From: Candidatus Woesearchaeota archaeon
GTDB taxonomy: Archaea; Nanobdellota; Nanobdellia; Woesearchaeales; UBA10216
Assembly (NCBI GenBank): GCA_016180065.1
Contig: JACPBY010000005.1
Span: forward strand, 128,848 to 162,370
Length of the DNA stretch: 33,523 bases
Direction of reading: 5' to 3'
Below the pieces are notes generated by a model. That model did not search any database. It was not told the DNA's origin and worked only from the letters and a program-made list of their open reading frames with translations. The stretch's first letter is position 1, and the number at the start of each line of letters is the position of its first letter. The position numbers and the translations under genes were made by a program. This document shows positions 7,405 to 24,715 of the stretch, piece after piece.

Positions 7405-7971
7405 ATGGCATTCGTAAGAGTAAAGCGCATCAACAACAAGGAATACGCCTACCTTGTTGCAAACAGCTGGACAGGCTCAGGCCCAAGGCAAAAAGTGGCA
7501 AAATACCTTGGAAGGGTAATAAGGCCTGAAAAGGCAAAAAATGAGGGCTTAGCGGGCTTTCTGGGGCTTACAAGCGACTCGGAAACAGCATCATGGCTGC
7601 AGAAAAGCTGCTTCAGGGAGATAGCAGCAGCACTGGTGATGCTGGAGCTTGAAAACCATAATTGTGGCGGAAACGGCCTGAAAACCAATGCTGAAAAGGC
7701 CGAATTCCTCGACGAAAAAGGCAAAAACGTCGTCTTTGCCATCAATGACGGCTTCCTGTGCAGCCACACGGCAAAAAAGCTTCTGGAATATGATGCCGAA
7801 CAGGCTGCGGCAGACTATTCAGGCTACAGCCTGGCAGACTCCCTTACAGCAGCGGGCATAGCTGTTGACAAGGATGTATTCATATCGCTGTTCGGAAAGA
7901 TGCAGGCAGTTGCCACAGCCAAAGAACAGGAAGGCGCAGCGAAAGGCGCTTTCAAGGACTTTTACTATTGA
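7405..7971 (+). CDS. Conserved archaeal hypothetical protein with transposase-like N-terminal strand motif
   Basis: A 188-residue protein beginning MAFVRVKRINNKEYAYLV. The N-terminal 40 residues (basic strand, YAYLV, then PRQKVAKYLGRV) resemble the small N-terminal beta domain of IS1634/IS4-like transposases and of several archaeal conserved hypotheticals. The catalytic DDE part of a transposase is absent, so this is not a transposase as it stands. The remainder is mixed helix and loop with no catalytic motif I can name; it includes a Cys/Asn run (ENHNCGGNG) and an Ala-rich C-terminus ending FKDFYY. It has its own promoter and a perfect palindromic operator. It converges on the NFACT gene with a 7-base overlap of the 3' ends. 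The function is not known to me. Confidence 0.78.
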   Translation: MAFVRVKRINNKEYAYLVANSWTGSGPRQKVAKYLGRVIRPEKAKNEGLAGFLGLTSDSETASWLQKSCFREIAAALVMLELENHNCGGNGLKTNAEKAEFLDEKGKNVVFAINDGFLCSHTAKKLLEYDAEQAAADYSGYSLADSLTAAGIAVDKDVFISLFGKMQAVATAKEQEGAAKGAFKDFYY

Positions 7972-9233
7972 CTGCTGCTTTCTTCACCCTCAAGCTCAAC
8001 CGCGACGGTGCCTGTTTTCTCGTCGATAGAAACGACTTTTTTGTTGCTGCTGAAGTATTCCCTGAGCTGATGCGGAGTGAAGGTTTTACGGAGCCTGTTG
8101 TAATCGTCAAGGATTTGTCTTACGCCCATGTAATGCACATAAATTGCCTCTGCTACAGCTGTTGCCTCATTAGCTGCCTTTTCCATTTCCTGAACAGCAG
8201 CATGCTGCCGCTCAATGGCTATTTCCATCTCCCTAATCTGCCTCGAATAACTGGCTGTTTTCAACGACAAAGAGGCTGCCTCCATTTGCGAGAGCATAAC
8301 CGCCTCAACAGCTTCATTAAACGTGCTGAATGATTTTGTTTTAGAAGCTGCAACCGCCGCAACAGGAAAAGGGTATGCCTCAATGATACAGCCATTTGCA
8401 TCCGATACTGCAACCGGCTCAGGCTTCCTGGACAAAAGCTGCTGCAATGACGAGTATAGCCTGCTAATTTCCGGCTGCGAAAGCTGTTTTGGCTGTTTAG
8501 CCTTATCAACCGCTGCGGCTGCACAAAGTTCCTCAGCATAAGTGCCTGAAAGCCCAACGCCCACTGCAAGAGCCTTGACAACAGAGTCCTTTCCCGACGA
8601 CAAAACGGCGTTTTGAAACTGAGCCATTTCCATTGCTGCAAAATCCGCTGTTGCCGGCGGAGGCATATAAGCAAAGCCTGGCCTTAATGTCCGGTCCTTC
8701 CACTGCTGCTGCTCGGCACAGCCAAGAATAATTCCTGATTCATCAGCAAGGATGATGTTGCCCTTGCTGAAAAGCTCAACAAAAAGCCTTAACTGCCCGT
8801 TTTTCGATGAGAAAACAAGCTCAAGGATGCGCTCAGAACCAAGCTGCCTTGCTGATGCGAGCCTTGCATTGCCAAGGCGGTGCCTGAGGAAGCTGCAAAA
8901 GCCGCTTGGACTCTCACTTGTCCGGGGTTTTCGCAGCGAGAAGAACACAGATGAAGGCACAAGGCAGGCAAGGAAGCACTGGCAATTCCGCCATTGGCTG
9001 AATGCACAAGTCGGCTGCAGCCGACTGTGCAGTCCTGCCAAAGCAGGACTTGCACCATCGGGCGAATCCCGATGTGTGCCCTCACTTCCTGCATTAAACT
9101 GAAAAACAAGCGCCTTTCCAGCCACTCCCGAAGCTGCCTGCAGGTCGTAAACCTGGCCCAGCCTTGAGCCTGCCAGCTGCCCAAACTCGTTTACAAGCAC
9201 CCTAAGCTCTATGGCAGCAAGCTGATTTCTCAT
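7965..9233 (-). CDS. NFACT-family protein (RqcH/NEMF-like) lacking the C-terminal NFACT-R domain, with an in-frame hairpin-element insertion
   Basis: 422 residues with the N-terminal NFACT-N pattern: a start like RNQLAAIELRVLVNEFGQLAGSRLGQVYDL, then LRKPRTSESPSGFCSFLRHRLGNARL, then LFVELFSKGNIILADESGIIL. A helical middle follows, then a coiled coil (about residues 315-370, RQIREMEIAIERQHAAVQEMEKA). The family binds the 60S/50S peptidyl-tRNA complex and, in RqcH, adds C-terminal Ala tails to stalled nascent chains. Here the protein stops after VSIDEKTGTVAVELEGEESSSQ, just where the NFACT-R (DUF814) domain normally begins, so tRNA-recruiting function may be lost or supplied by another gene. About 33 residues in the NFACT-N domain (GTHRDSPD...RNC, after QFNAGSE) are encoded by the hairpin element at 8981-9080. 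The start at 9233 (ATG) is preferred to GTG 9239 because relatives begin near here. Confidence 0.85.
   Translation of the reverse strand: MRNQLAAIELRVLVNEFGQLAGSRLGQVYDLQAASGVAGKALVFQFNAGSEGTHRDSPDGASPALAGLHSRLQPTCAFSQWRNCQCFLACLVPSSVFFSLRKPRTSESPSGFCSFLRHRLGNARLASARQLGSERILELVFSSKNGQLRLFVELFSKGNIILADESGIILGCAEQQQWKDRTLRPGFAYMPPPATADFAAMEMAQFQNAVLSSGKDSVVKALAVGVGLSGTYAEELCAAAAVDKAKQPKQLSQPEISRLYSSLQQLLSRKPEPVAVSDANGCIIEAYPFPVAAVAASKTKSFSTFNEAVEAVMLSQMEAASLSLKTASYSRQIREMEIAIERQHAAVQEMEKAANEATAVAEAIYVHYMGVRQILDDYNRLRKTFTPHQLREYFSSNKKVVSIDEKTGTVAVELEGEESSSQ
8981..9080 (-). repeat. In-frame modular palindromic element, four-hairpin copy, inside the NFACT gene
   Basis: Four hairpins follow each other on the plus strand. 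Hairpin A, 8985-9003, is imperfect: ATTC(C)GCCA-T-TGGC(T)GAAT. Hairpin B, 9009-9026, is the perfect 18-bp palindrome AGTCGGCTGCAGCCGACT. Hairpin C, 9031-9050, is AGTCCTGC-CAAA-GCAGGACT. Hairpin D, 9056-9074, is CATCGGG-CGAAT-CCCGATG. Centres are about 23-24.5 bases apart, joined by GCAC/GTGC linkers, and the whole is bounded by GGCA and TGCC. Read with the gene, 8982-9080 is 99 bases, or 33 codons, with no stop. Hairpin D's central 17 bases are identical to those at 10986-11002 in yjbQ, and both copies are read as G-T-x-R-D-S-P-D and end in R-N-C. Confidence 0.8.
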
Positions 9234-9263
9234 AACCACTCACTTTTACTCTCTTATACGAAC

Positions 9264-9272
9264 TTTATAAAG
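9264..9272 (-). promoter_or_regulatory. Box A of the NFACT gene
   Basis: CTTTATAAAG-like sequence, with TTTATAAAG on the minus strand, centred about 35 bases before the ATG at 9233; it predicts a leader of about 8 bases. A second AT-rich string, CGTATAAGAG (9251-9260), is nearer and cannot be excluded. Confidence 0.45.
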
Positions 9273-9318
9273 GCTTTTTGCCACTTTATGCCTGAAAAGC
9301 TGCAAAAGCATACCAAAA

Positions 9319-9373
9319 AAGTGAGGCTTCGACAGCAGCAGGCAGACGCCAAAGAGCCGCCAAACCCTCACTT
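9319..9373. other. Long stem-loop in the 9234-9475 intergenic region
   Basis: AAGTGAGG (9319-9326) pairs with CCTCACTT (9366-9373) around a 39-base loop. On the minus strand the stem is followed by a T run (9320 downwards, TTTTTT), so it could be a small RNA end or a terminator of transcription started at the symmetrical box A near 9440. No tRNA, RNase P, SRP or clear C/D-box features are seen. The rest of this 242-base gap holds only promoters. Confidence 0.3.
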
Positions 9374-9439
9374 CTAGCTTTGTCAGGATAGTGCCTAAGG
9401 CCAAAGCTGCTTTAACAGCACTCACAGCTACAGGATAAA

Positions 9440-9451
9440 GTATTTAAATAC
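9440..9451. promoter_or_regulatory. Palindromic box A upstream of the coiled-coil/winged-helix gene
   Basis: GTATTTAAATAC is a perfect 12-bp palindrome centred about 30 bases before the ATG at 9476. Because it is symmetrical it could also start transcription leftwards, towards the stem-loop at 9319-9373. Confidence 0.5.
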
Positions 9452-9475
9452 GTTTCCTATGATGCTTTTAGAAAA

Positions 9476-10183
9476 ATGGGGTTTTTGAGCTTCTTATCAG
9501 GCGGTAGCAAAGGCGGCAGCAAGGACGGCAGGCAAGAGCTTACACTCTCATCTGCAGCTGTCATTGAGGCAAAGGTTATTACTGCTTTCTCAAGGGTAAG
9601 ACAGGACATCTCACTAGTCAGCTCCTGGGTAAAATACCTCAAGCACAAGGACCTGCTTCATGAGCAAAGGCACACCAAAGCGCAAAGGGAACTTGGAGAA
9701 CACAAAGCCCTGATAGAAGGGCTCAAAGCAGAGGCTGCTGAAATCAAGGCAACCATACATTCTTTGAGGAACGAACTGAAAAAAGAGCTTGAAGAGGCAA
9801 AACAGGCAGGAAAAGCTGCCGAAAGCATGTCCGTTAACGAACCAAACAAGTTCGTTTCCGAACTTAATCCGAACTTAATCCGGACTGAATCCGGACTGAA
9901 TCCGAACCGAAAACGAACTTACTTTGAGAACCGGGTCGTGAGCATGCTCAGAAGCAGGAGAAAGGACTATGTTTTGAAGCAAATTTTGGAGCTCGCGGAA
10001 AAAGAAACGCACTCAACAAGGGAAATAGAGGAAGTTGTCGTCGGAGAAAAGGCACTGTGCGGAAGGACTGCATTCTATGATTATTTGCGCGAATTGAAGC
10101 ACAAAAAGATGATAAAGCTCCATGAGAAGGGGCAAAAGAGGATAATTTCTCTTGCAAAAGAAGGTTTTGAGGAAGTTCGTTAA
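9476..10183 (+). CDS. Coiled-coil protein with C-terminal winged-helix domain; carries an internal 11-bp repeat array
   Basis: A 235-residue protein in three parts. The N-terminal 25 residues are Gly/Ser/Lys-rich (FLSGGSKGGSKDG). A long charged coiled coil follows (about residues 55-118: EQRHTKAQRELGEHKALIEGLKAEAAEIK...LKKELEEAKQAGKAAE). The C-terminal winged-helix-like domain (about 150-235) contains RRKDYVLKQILELAEKETHSTREIEEVVV..RTAFYDYLRELKHKKMIKL and a wing with GQKRIISLAKEG. It is likely DNA-binding and may act in transcription or chromosome organisation; I cannot name a family. Between coil and winged helix, residues 125-149 (KFVSELNPNLIRTESGLNPN and the next five residues) are encoded by 11-bp repeats, which give an 11-residue period (LNPN twice). 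The same 11-bp unit recurs at its 3' end, where it converges on the kinase gene. Confidence 0.75.
   Translation: MGFLSFLSGGSKGGSKDGRQELTLSSAAVIEAKVITAFSRVRQDISLVSSWVKYLKHKDLLHEQRHTKAQRELGEHKALIEGLKAEAAEIKATIHSLRNELKKELEEAKQAGKAAESMSVNEPNKFVSELNPNLIRTESGLNPNRKRTYFENRVVSMLRSRRKDYVLKQILELAEKETHSTREIEEVVVGEKALCGRTAFYDYLRELKHKKMIKLHEKGQKRIISLAKEGFEEVR
9833..9920 (+). repeat. 11-bp tandem repeats bounded by 10-bp inverted repeats, inside a coding region
   Basis: Inverted repeats AAGTTCGTTT (9848-9857) and AAACGAACTT (9911-9920) enclose 4.6 tandem 11-bp units. The units are CCGAACTTAAT at 9858 and 9869, CCGGACTGAAT at 9880 and 9891, and a partial CCGAACC at 9902. A preceding GTTAACGAAC (9833-9842) recurs at 10179-10188. 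AAGTTCG-TTTC-CGAACTT (9848-9865) also forms a local hairpin. All frames used by the gene stay open. The unit length is about one helical turn. Confidence 0.75.
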
Positions 10184-10225
10184 CGAACTAAGTCCGGACT
10201 GAATCCGGACTAAGTCCGGACTTGC
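10175..10225. repeat. Second 11-bp repeat array at the convergent gene ends
   Basis: The perfect palindrome GTTCGTTAACGAAC (10175-10188) is followed by three 11-bp units: CCGGACTGAAT (10194), CCGGACTAAGT (10205) and CCGGACTTGCT (10216). Each contains or borders TCCGGA, giving repeated AGTCCGGACT palindromes. The array covers the stop of the winged-helix gene and the last codons of the AK6-type kinase gene on the other strand, so it could also fold at both mRNA 3' ends. Confidence 0.7.
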
Positions 10226-10731
10226 TTTTTGAGTTTAGCGGCAAGGCTTACAACATCAGAATTTTTGGCTTTGGTTGTGTCAAATTTCAGGGTTTTATGG
10301 CCGGATTCAGCTGCTTCCGAAGCACAGGTGTCAAAGATTTCAGCATCAAGGTTCTCCCTCACCTTGGCAGCCGCATAGCCCTTCCTCAGCAGCCGCTGCC
10401 TCAGCTTTTTAAGGCTGCAGGTTGTTACAAGGCACAAATCAGCATGCCTTGAAGGCAGATAGTGAGACAGATGGGAGTCAAAAATAATGCCTTTCTGGCC
10501 TGTTTTCATGGCTTTTTCACTCACTTTTAGCAGTTCAGAGGCTAATTCAGCCGTATCCACAACATAACTACGCCTTTTGCGGTCGTAGGAGCTGTAGATG
10601 TGAGCATCCTTAATGAAGGAATTAACGTCAAAGTACGTATAACCCAGTAAAAGTGAGAGCTTTTTAGCCAAAGTGGTCTTGCCAGTGCCTGGAGTGCCTG
10701 TCATCAGGAGGGTTACGAAGCCGCGCTTCAC
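10210..10731 (-). CDS. AK6/Fap7-type adenylate kinase-like NTPase
   Basis: A 173-residue P-loop kinase with Walker A GTPGTGKTT (12-20). It then has FDVNSFIKDAHIYSSYDRKRRSYVVD, HLSHYLPSRHADLCLV, RLLRKGYAAAKVRENLDAEIFDTC and a short C-terminus. The YVVD, SHxSH-like and KVRENLDAEIFD strings identify the adenylate kinase 6/Fap7 family, which acts in 18S/16S rRNA maturation and 30S assembly and has weak adenylate kinase activity. The length is normal for archaeal members. It starts with GTG at 10731, which overlaps the stop of the upstream yjbQ gene (GTGA), so translation is probably coupled. Its last codons are written by the 11-bp repeat at 10205-10225, so the QVRT tail is probably repeat-derived. 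Confidence 0.88.
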   Translation of the reverse strand: MKRGFVTLLMTGTPGTGKTTLAKKLSLLLGYTYFDVNSFIKDAHIYSSYDRKRRSYVVDTAELASELLKVSEKAMKTGQKGIIFDSHLSHYLPSRHADLCLVTTCSLKKLRQRLLRKGYAAAKVRENLDAEIFDTCASEAAESGHKTLKFDTTKAKNSDVVSLAAKLKKQVRT

Positions 10732-11105
10732 TTGCCCACCACCTGAACATAAATCTTCCGGTCACTTCTTGGGCCGTCAAGCTCGCAGAAGCAGATGCTC
10801 TGCCATGCGCCAAGCTGAAGTTTGCCGTTGCTAAGCGGGATGCTTCTGGAAGGGCCAAGGATGGCAGACAATACATGGGCTGCGCCATGGCCATGAGTGC
10901 CGTGCTCATGAGCATACCCGGCTGTTTTAGGCACTAGGCTTGAAAGTGAGTTTAAGACGCAATTCCGCGAAGAGCGGAATGCGCAATCGGGCGAATCCCG
11001 ATTTGTGCCATCTTTGATGCCGGAACCAGCAACCGCTGCTTCTATTTTGCCGGTTATATTGATTAGCTCATTGTTTCTTGACGATGAAAAGCGTATTTGG
11101 CACAT
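10728..11105 (-). CDS. YjbQ/secondary thiamine-phosphate synthase family protein with conserved core replaced by a hairpin element (probably inactive)
   Basis: A 125-residue UPF0047/YjbQ-type protein. Both flanks are clear: ELINITGKIEAAVAGSGIKDG at the start, then LNSLSSLVPKTAGYAHEHG, AHVLSAILGPSRSIPLSNGKLQLGAWQSICFCELDGPR and VQVVG. Family members continue after SGIKDG with about 26 residues holding the VPHTTAGxTINENxDPxVxxD core; here this is absent and 17 residues beginning TNRDSPDC and ending RNCV stand in its place. Those residues are encoded by the two-hairpin element at 10959-11009. The frame is kept, so the downstream GTGA-coupled kinase can still be translated. The conserved HTT histidine is lost, so enzyme activity is doubtful. 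The ATG at 11105 is chosen because a box A lies about 28 bases upstream and relatives start here. Confidence 0.82.
   Translation of the reverse strand: MCQIRFSSSRNNELINITGKIEAAVAGSGIKDGTNRDSPDCAFRSSRNCVLNSLSSLVPKTAGYAHEHGTHGHGAAHVLSAILGPSRSIPLSNGKLQLGAWQSICFCELDGPRSDRKIYVQVVGK
10959..11009 (-). repeat. In-frame modular palindromic element, two-hairpin copy, inside yjbQ
   Basis: Two hairpins on the plus strand: ATTCCGC-GAAGA-GCGGAAT (10962-10980), then AATCGGG-CGAAT-CCCGATT (10985-11003), centres 23 bases apart and joined by GCGC. The outer ends are GCA (10959) and TTGTGCC (11003-11009). The length is 51 bases, or 17 codons, in the gene's frame. The core ATCGGGCGAATCCCGAT is identical to hairpin D of the copy at 8981-9080, and the left hairpin resembles hairpin A there (ATTCCGC...GAAT). 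Confidence 0.8.
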
Positions 11106-11129
11106 GGCAGCAGAGATTGTAAAAGCAAG

Positions 11130-11136
11130 TATAAAA
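11130..11136 (-). promoter_or_regulatory. Box A of the yjbQ-kinase operon
   Basis: TTTTATA on the minus strand, centred about 28 bases before the ATG at 11105. Confidence 0.55.
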
Positions 11137-11172
11137 GAATATGGCTGCAAGCGCGCTTGAAGCTTTGGAAGG

Positions 11173-23152: not shown

Positions 23153-24715
23153 TTACTTTTGGTATATCGACTCGTTCACAAAAATAAAGTAGCTCATTTT
23201 TCCTTCAAAATATGTGCCGTTAAAGACAGGCAGGAAGCTTGAGCTGATCTTCTCGTAAAGCATGTCGCGGCCAGCATAGCAGCCAATGTCAATGGCAGGG
23301 CAGTAAAGCGTTTCCGGGGAAAACACAACAGCCTCGGCAGGCCTTCCAGTAATGTCCCAGGATGGCTTTAACTCTTTGGGAATGCCCCTTGATGAGTCGT
23401 AATAGGCGAAGAAGAGATTGTCGTTATAGGCTGCAAAGACCGGCTCGGATGTAAGCACAGGCCCATCAATGCCCAGCCTTGAAAGCGAGCCGTAAAGCTC
23501 CTGCACCATTTCAGGCTCAGATGCAGGCCTCCAGCTGTAAAAATGATAGTCCGTGTAAACAGCAATGCTGAATGAAAAGGCAAGAAGCGACGCGGCAGAA
23601 ACCAAAGCAAGGGAACGCAGATGCCTCTGCCTTATGCCGCGGCAGAACCTTATGGATTCAAAGAACGCTGCTGCTGAAAAGATGCATATGAAAGGCAGAA
23701 ACAGCAAGAGGAACCTGCCGTCCTTGTTCGGGATGTAAGAAAAATAGGCAAGGTACAATGCCAGAACTGCAGCCAAAAAAAGCCTGCCGCTGTTAAGGAA
23801 CCATTTCTTCCTGAAGAAGAGAAAAACGGCTACAGCTGCAAAAACAAAGGCAAAGTGCTGCCTGAGAGCCTCAATAAAGTAGAAAGAGTAGCTGTACAGC
23901 TGGCTGGCAATTGCCTTGGCAGGATTTGACTGGTGCCACGAAGCCAGCAGGAACGGCCTGAAAACAGCATGAAAAAAGTTGCTGGTATAAGAACGGTAGA
24001 AAAAATAGTTAAAGGCCAGAAAGGGCAGTGCAACAGCAATGAAAGAAACAGAAGCCTTTGCCAGTGGAACAAGCTGGGCCAACCAACTCTGAAACCGGCT
24101 AAATTGCAACTGTAACTTTCCCGCCCTCAGCAGCGAAAAAACAACCGTTGCCGCAACTGCAACCACCAATAAGGCGTTTGTGAACTTGAATAGCACTGCC
24201 AGGGCTGCTGCTGCGCCGCAAAAATAGTATCTCCTGCTGATGAAAAAGTAAACGGACAGGAGAACAAAGAATGCTGAAGGGATTTCCGTAAGAATGTACG
24301 ATGAGTAAAGAAAAAACCACGGGGAAGCTGCAAGAAATGAAGCTGCGAGAACTGCTGCGTTTTTGCTGAAAAGCCTTTTGGAAACAAGGTAAGTCAGCAG
24401 TATGCTGCCTATGCTGAACAGCACAGCAACCAGTTCTGAAACTGCCGTGTAAGGCAGCCCGAGCTTCCATGCCCAGCCGACAGCCAAAGGCAGCCCTGGC
24501 GGCCTGATCACTTCCCACAGGCCTGAGCTGCCCAACGAGTAAATATACTTGCCCATGCCCAAATAGACTGCCTCATCCCAACCTGGAAGATTATACTTAA
24601 GAAAGAATGCCAGCTTCGCAGCCGTGAAAGCTGCAAGCAGGAAAATGAACGGCACAATCCCGCCTATGGCTGGATGTGTTATGAATGCCAATCTTGACAG
24701 AATTGGCGTTTTCAT
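23153..24715 (-). CDS. GT-C fold glycosyltransferase, ArnT/PMT (mannosyltransferase-like) family
   Basis: 520 residues with about 11-12 membrane helices. The first external loop carries LPGWDEAVYLGMGKYIY, the acidic D-E motif used by GT39/GT83 enzymes to bind the divalent metal and polyprenyl-phosphate sugar. RPPGLPLAVGWAWKLG and ASPWFFLYSSYILTEIPSAFFVLLSVYFF follow, as in PMT_2 proteins. A soluble extracellular C-terminal part (YGSLSRLGIDGPVLTSEPVFAAYNDN...) ends the protein. Such enzymes move a sugar from dolichyl-phosphate to protein or lipid at the outer membrane face. The start is set at ATG 24715 because it overlaps the stop of the upstream gene as ATGA; the longer frame to 24733 would give a 22-base overlap. 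It is last in a GT2, thioredoxin-fold, GT-C operon. Confidence 0.87.
   Translation of the reverse strand: MKTPILSRLAFITHPAIGGIVPFIFLLAAFTAAKLAFFLKYNLPGWDEAVYLGMGKYIYSLGSSGLWEVIRPPGLPLAVGWAWKLGLPYTAVSELVAVLFSIGSILLTYLVSKRLFSKNAAVLAASFLAASPWFFLYSSYILTEIPSAFFVLLSVYFFISRRYYFCGAAAALAVLFKFTNALLVVAVAATVVFSLLRAGKLQLQFSRFQSWLAQLVPLAKASVSFIAVALPFLAFNYFFYRSYTSNFFHAVFRPFLLASWHQSNPAKAIASQLYSYSFYFIEALRQHFAFVFAAVAVFLFFRKKWFLNSGRLFLAAVLALYLAYFSYIPNKDGRFLLLFLPFICIFSAAAFFESIRFCRGIRQRHLRSLALVSAASLLAFSFSIAVYTDYHFYSWRPASEPEMVQELYGSLSRLGIDGPVLTSEPVFAAYNDNLFFAYYDSSRGIPKELKPSWDITGRPAEAVVFSPETLYCPAIDIGCYAGRDMLYEKISSSFLPVFNGTYFEGKMSYFIFVNESIYQK

Follow-up and report, generated by a model that had tools for sequence, protein, structure and literature searches.

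What are the strings of short hairpins that interrupt two protein genes of an uncultured archaeon? We studied a stretch of 33,523 nucleotides (the window) from Candidatus Woesearchaeota archaeon (assembly GCA_016180065.1, contig JACPBY010000005.1, positions 128,848 to 162,370), in which the NFACT gene carries four hairpins (8985-9074) and the yjbQ gene carries two (10962-11003). Both strings contain the 17-mer ATCGGGCGAATCCCGAT, and the linkers are of the types GCAC, GCGC and GTGC, just as the original prediction, made from the letters alone, had described. That prediction also proposed a mobile or amplifying palindromic element built of modules. This idea held up: we found many dispersed copies, as well as orthologous genes that cleanly lack the 48 bp of an insertion. 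We consider it highly probable that the strings belong to a non-autonomous family of mobile DNA, whose members we name Woesearchaeotal double-hairpin elements. In most copies, the linker between the two hairpins is complementary to the dinucleotide at which the element inserted.

Double hairpins in the window and empty sites in relatives

On the coding strand, both strings fold much better than shuffled sequences, with z = -6.8 (NFACT string) and z = -2.95 (yjbQ string). A double-hairpin descriptor matches the window exactly twice, versus 0.05 times per window in dinucleotide-Markov sequence. Rfam gave no match near threshold in 8900-11100, so we rejected a known RNA family for this region. 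The features are (genomes are labelled G000, G001, and so on, and loci L005, L040, and so on):

7965..9239, - strand: host gene NFACT (PF05833, E 6.6e-38)
8983..9078, - strand: 96-bp NFACT insertion, an outer double-hairpin element carrying a nested one; absent from G002, G004, G005, G006 and G007
8983-9004 and 9055-9076: the two parts of the outer NFACT element, with the TG flank at 9077-9078
8985..9003, - strand: hairpin of the outer NFACT element, ATTCCGCC-att-GGCTGAAT
9005..9006: left 2-bp direct repeat (CA on the + strand) of the nested NFACT element, within the outer linker G-CA-C
9007..9052, - strand: 46-bp double-hairpin core of the nested NFACT element; linker GTGC at 9027-9030; E 4e-11
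9053..9054: right 2-bp direct repeat (CA on the + strand) of the nested NFACT element
9056..9074, - strand: hairpin of the outer NFACT element, CATCGGG-cgaat-CCCGATG
9077..9078: target dinucleotide of the outer NFACT element, TG (CA on the coding strand)
10728..11150, - strand: host gene yjbQ / UPF0047, with a core segment deleted beside the element (PF01894, E 6e-22)
10958..10959: target dinucleotide of the yjbQ element, CG; empty site in orthologues
10960..11005, - strand: 46-bp double-hairpin core of the yjbQ element; linker GCGC; E 3e-16; insertion point same in G007

The usual unit is 46 bp: CA, a hairpin, a four-base linker (GnnC), a second hairpin, and TG. Counting the 2-bp direct repeat, an insertion lengthens its host sequence by 48 bp. 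NFACT has gained 96 bp and the yjbQ site 48 bp, rather than the 99 and 51 bases first given. The 96 bp in NFACT are two 48-bp insertions, one nested in the other: the outer element has the linker GTGC and the target CA, and the second element sits in its linker. This accounts for the 48-base difference between the two strings, which the original prediction had read as two modules. The repeat copy at the other end of the outer element (8981-8982) is GG, one substitution away from TG.

The prediction had suggested looking for empty sites in NFACT and yjbQ orthologues, and clean ones were found for both genes. For NFACT, five relatives are empty at GGCA/GGTA-A. For yjbQ, the site is empty in G003, G004 and G012, and in G007 it is cleanly occupied by 48 bp at GA-CG-TC. 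In the window's genome, yjbQ is interrupted at the same point as in G007, and about 24 codons beside the element, including the PHATAA region, have been lost; in G007 (L040), the C-terminal half of the gene is lost. Because of these losses, both copies of yjbQ are probably decaying. The two species thus offer a case of parallel decay, each next to the same inserted element.

Exact presence or absence of 48 bp was also seen at ABCE1 (TA), IscS (CA), OGG (CA), amidase (CA), metallophosphoesterase (TG), radical SAM (TG), and DEAD-box helicase (TG) genes, with the dinucleotide in parentheses. The AspRS gene of G007 has a 48-bp insertion as well, of a type with a six-base linker. In AcpS, only a protein search showed the insertion, in the form of 16 additional codons; nucleotide alignments of AcpS and of a RIO-like kinase gave no clean empty site. 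Some insertions are shared by independent assemblies (ABCE1 in three species, IscS in two). The hairpins are almost certainly neither something that the host proteins had from their ancestors nor an assembly error: the relatives' empty sites refute the former, and insertions in common between independently assembled species refute the latter.

The linker matches the insertion site

To describe the unit, we scanned about 120 stretches around search matches with a descriptor that fixed only CA, two hairpins, and TG. This gave 137 distinct double hairpins, which are those near search matches rather than a full census. The linker rule was counted on the 117 copies with a four-base linker and compared to 2,000 permutations. 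The same two bases stand on both flanks in 111 of the 117 copies (permutation mean 34, maximum 50), and in 105 both flanks are the reverse complement of the two bases at the linker's centre (permutation mean 33, maximum 51). After removing related flanks with a simple independence filter, 61 of 72 copies obey the rule. The target dinucleotides are CG (41), TG (33), CA (25), TA (4), and others (2), so targets are almost always pyrimidine-purine (YR). In an alignment of 35 copies, linker and flank covary: they pair in 33 to 35 of the 35, with two to four types of pair. And in all nine insertions that were checked against orthologues, the linker fits the dinucleotide of the site.

Written out with its flanks, the unit reads YR-CA-[stem-loop]-G-(revcomp YR)-C-[stem-loop]-TG-YR, and the insertion context is symmetrical (G-N-YR-N-C). 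Most stems start with NNTC. Stems are kept while loops vary: loop entropy is near 2 bits, and 30 AATCGGG hairpins have 20 different loops. An AATCGG hairpin is paired with ATTCCG in 43 of the 117 copies, and this non-random pairing implies that the two hairpins are inherited together. Pairing of the outer ends, as in a cruciform, holds in just 22 to 24 of the 35 aligned copies, a poorer fit than local pairing, so we rejected it as the conserved structure. A minority of copies have six-base linkers (GGGCCC, GTGCCC, GGGCAC, or GCGCAC). In these, each half of the linker is complementary to its own flank, so the two flanks need not be equal.

Distribution and host genes

A search for the exact hairpin ATCGGG-N5-CCCGAT, which had been suggested along with the original prediction, gave five occurrences in the window's genome and zero in a reversed control. 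The hairpin is present in 7 of the 8 genomes of the genus and in 0 of 11 genomes from the other genera of its taxonomic family, with single matches in two more distant genomes. Using a covariance model, we found the elements in all 8 genomes of the genus, with 10 to 81 matches each (near-palindromic places may be counted on both strands). Outside the genus, two other genera of the taxonomic family gave a single match each, and the 49 remaining genomes gave no match. Across 84,980 GTDB species genomes, a longer pattern was found only in Candidatus Woesearchaeota records and on a single contig of 3.7 kb that is labelled Diapherotrites. As a control, loci from other genera (126 kb in total) were scanned and gave no double hairpin. 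We rejected viral carriers, as no viral contig in IMG/VR matched the element pattern. The mobile family belongs to one genus of uncultured Woesearchaeota and is nearly nowhere else.

A few individual matches deserve mention. The Diapherotrites-labelled contig (UBA10205) holds a perfect copy of the element (L118, 212-257), which could reflect transfer or mis-binning. In G016, from another genus of the taxonomic family, a copy with very different stems (L133, 1505-1552) still obeys the linker rule (CG, GCGC, CG). Within the window, a weak match to the covariance model at 24630-24689 (E 0.004) might be a degraded copy or an unrelated hairpin.

Many of the elements lie in protein-coding genes. At least 40 codons are open on both sides of 54 of the 137 elements, and five or six of the six reading frames are open in 113. 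As proposed, host frames are kept open: 21 of the 24 copies in strong open reading frame (ORF) contexts are 48 bp. Pfam domains span the insert in IscS, amidase, AspRS, tRNA methyltransferase TRM, and ABC_tran (ABCE1), and also in polyprenyl synthetase, ACPS, and phosphoesterase genes; the predicted peptide across the insert in ABCE1 is, for example, HIGMRPMVHSANGGIV. The shared reading frame that had been described is correct for the NFACT and yjbQ copies but is not a property of the family, as the remaining copies use several frames. From host to host, both the frame and the strand change (QIG..., TNRD..., HNSA..., QFRDE...), so no common peptide is kept.

We also saw other repeats. A larger repeat with the outer stem ATAAGGGC/GCCCTTAT has the double hairpin inside (L061, L067, L069, L082, L089, L092) and also occurs in coding frames (RIO-like kinase, helicase). 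In another composite (L063, L076, L078, L086, L091), a GCATCGG-type hairpin lies beside a TAGAGRCA-like hairpin, unlike the CA..TG units. The window's genome contains a 129-bp repeat with 98 percent identity (L094, 1382-1510, and L095, 1432-1559), short parts of which are also in L005 and L096; this is possibly a second composite hairpin family. Finally, the palindromic words GTTCGTTAACGAAC and AGTCCGGACT/AATCCGGACT are clustered at 9835-9915 and 10165-10230 of the window, within and just behind the gene at 9476-10183, and again in the G007 counterpart (L040). These clusters may be binding sites for the product of that gene itself.

Relation to known elements and how insertion might occur

Like the Woesearchaeotal elements, cyanobacterial short dispersed repeats are very small and mobile, and they nest and enter genes. 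The parallel drawn in the original prediction was with the Rickettsia palindromic elements (RPEs), which are about 150 bp and each encode a conserved peptide (PMC10969869). It stands as an analogy, since both are short palindromic repeats that are dispersed in the genome and lie in frame in unrelated protein genes, but not as family membership: the Woesearchaeotal core is 46 bp with two hairpins, occurs in several frames with no conserved encoded peptide, and has a 2-bp repeat and a target-matching linker. Yeast mitochondrial GC clusters (GC42) are flanked by a direct repeat, AG or ACT, and their units merge (PMC4478555). They resemble our elements in having about the same size, hairpins, a short direct repeat, conserved stems with variable loops, and merging units. 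As in GC clusters and mitochondrial double-hairpin elements, the double hairpin has a short direct repeat at both ends (in the 111 of 117 copies above). However, GC42 is mitochondrial and has one target (AG), while in the Woesearchaeotal elements the flank varies together with the linker, and core genes of archaea are the hosts. Mitochondrial double-hairpin elements and the repetitive hairpin-forming elements of sponges have adjacent hairpins and conserved stems, insert in tandem, and occasionally enter genes without shifting the frame (PMC2800124). These are from other organisms, and the passages of their description on which this comparison is based mention no match between target and linker. 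By analogy, the Woesearchaeotal element appears to work like RPEs, yeast GC clusters, and mitochondrial double-hairpin elements, and we assign it to none of them.

A parallel in principle, and in principle only, to the linker complementarity of the 105 copies is IS608 of the IS200/IS605 family, in which an end hairpin has at its foot a guide that pairs with the cleavage site (PMC5934647). Most of our genomes lack a Y1 transposase, and unlike IS200/IS605 or REP/RAYT elements, the Woesearchaeotal elements have the 2-nt target at both ends and a single linker that is shared by both ends. Across the descriptions of known elements that we searched, the match between linker and target was not encountered. 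As the original prediction had supposed, we found no archaeal counterpart in the literature searched, with most subscription journals outside the search's reach.

How might these elements move? The DNA would travel as a hairpin-folded single strand that an enzyme would cut at the YR step. During insertion, the linker would base-pair with the target dinucleotide, which it would either select or be a copy of. Transcription and translation of the insert would give the protein about 16 additional residues where these are tolerated; stems that keep their structure and the scarcity of stop codons in any frame would allow it to survive in genes. A bolder reading is that the element addresses itself, as a piece of mobile DNA of 46 bases that has no gene and carries an internal linker complementary to the dinucleotide at which it inserts. 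For this bolder reading, our doubts slightly outweigh our confidence.

Several observations weigh against the overall explanation of a family of mobile elements. All of the genomes are incomplete metagenome-assembled genomes (MAGs), and translation of the insert is predicted from ORFs. Where orthologues share an insertion, the element differs at 0 or 1 of its 48 bp, versus roughly 13 to 23 percent in the coding flanks (for instance, 0/48 versus 95/480 and 98/480). A purely neutral selfish insert would not be expected to be conserved more than its flanks, which suggests selection on the folded sequence or conversion between copies. Also, G007, the genome with the most copies, lacks all of the candidate mobilisers: Y1_Tnp, resolvase, reverse transcriptase, and DDE_3. 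Among these MAGs, Y1_Tnp is found only in G002 and G004 and is absent from the other 6 of 8; resolvase is in G001 only, RVT_1 is in G000, G002 and G003, and DDE_3 is in G000 and G002. A MITE would share terminal inverted repeats with an autonomous transposon; the loci of these four kinds of gene contain no double hairpin, and only one isolated half element lies near the DDE_3 gene of G000. As mobilisers, we rejected serine resolvase, reverse transcriptase, and DDE_3 of the IS630 type, given the absence of all three from G007.

The evidence is split between two versions of the insertion step. If the linker is an inherited guide, it would pick a complementary dinucleotide much as the guide of IS608 picks TTAC; in IS608, pairing with the guide at the hairpin foot finds the target and can be re-programmed (PMC5934647). 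Within the main class of hairpins, oriented linkers are uneven (12 GCAC versus 2 GTGC), which favours inheritance. However, G000 and G007 are without a Y1 transposase, and an association between linker and hairpin class that was strong at first disappeared once related sites were removed (p = 0.36, n = 33, all classes). Furthermore, linkers differ in 18 of 43 pairs of hairpins from different sites with at most 2 mismatches, which favours copying or rapid change. We view the guide as possible but somewhat doubtful. In the alternative version, a hairpin would be joined to each 3' end of a staggered break with a 2-nt 3' overhang; self-primed fill-in would copy the dinucleotide, and the two complementary tails would anneal, so that the target would end up in three places, once in each flank and once, inverted, in the linker. 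Copying would account together for three features: a flank that is duplicated, a linker that holds its inverted copy, and units that face in opposite orientations. It would also explain why near-identical hairpins have different linkers that mostly each fit their own site, such as TA/GTAC/TA in L198 and CA/GTGC/CA in L201, which have one hairpin difference. On the other hand, the pairing of hairpins is non-random, linkers do not change clearly more per site than loops do, and six-base linkers do not fit simply. Copying, too, seems to us conceivable rather than probable.

Two other explanations for the elements fare worse. One is a REP/BIME family that owes its mobility to a RAYT (Y1) transposase: the imperfect, bulged hairpins and the inverted pairs resemble REP dimers, and Y1_Tnp genes are present in G002 and G004. 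But 6 of the 8 genomes, including the copy-richest, are missing Y1_Tnp, no half of the element was found beside the Y1 genes, and these elements sit inside genes with a 2-bp direct repeat. REP/RAYT systems are defined by an end tag and a transposase (PMC3733652), and instead of an unpaired GTAG or CGTC tag, the Woesearchaeotal ends are YR-CA and TG-YR. We think this explanation is unlikely. The original prediction had raised translational bypass or RNA excision, in which case the protein would never carry the insert. Strong RNA hairpins and the conservation of the stems beyond that of the coding flanks are consistent with this, but excision would require neither the 48-bp length (21 of 24) nor open frames, and by inspection the joints have no bulge-helix-bulge geometry. 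From the sequence, these alternatives gained no support, and we consider them improbable.

Very small palindromic DNA that spreads through protein genes and is carried along in core enzymes has been known mainly from Rickettsia and mitochondria, and the double-hairpin elements show it in archaea. They provide natural cases of 16-residue inserts that core proteins apparently tolerate, and they account for otherwise puzzling indels in the annotations of this genus. Because the linker-target rule is a lasting record of each insertion, the mechanism is testable from sequence alone. If the elements are indeed self-addressed, core proteins of archaea would gain inserts of 16 residues from them, and they would represent either a further way of matching a target, next to the guides of IS608 and the bridge RNAs of IS110, or else a form of repair by hairpin capping in which the target is written in three places.

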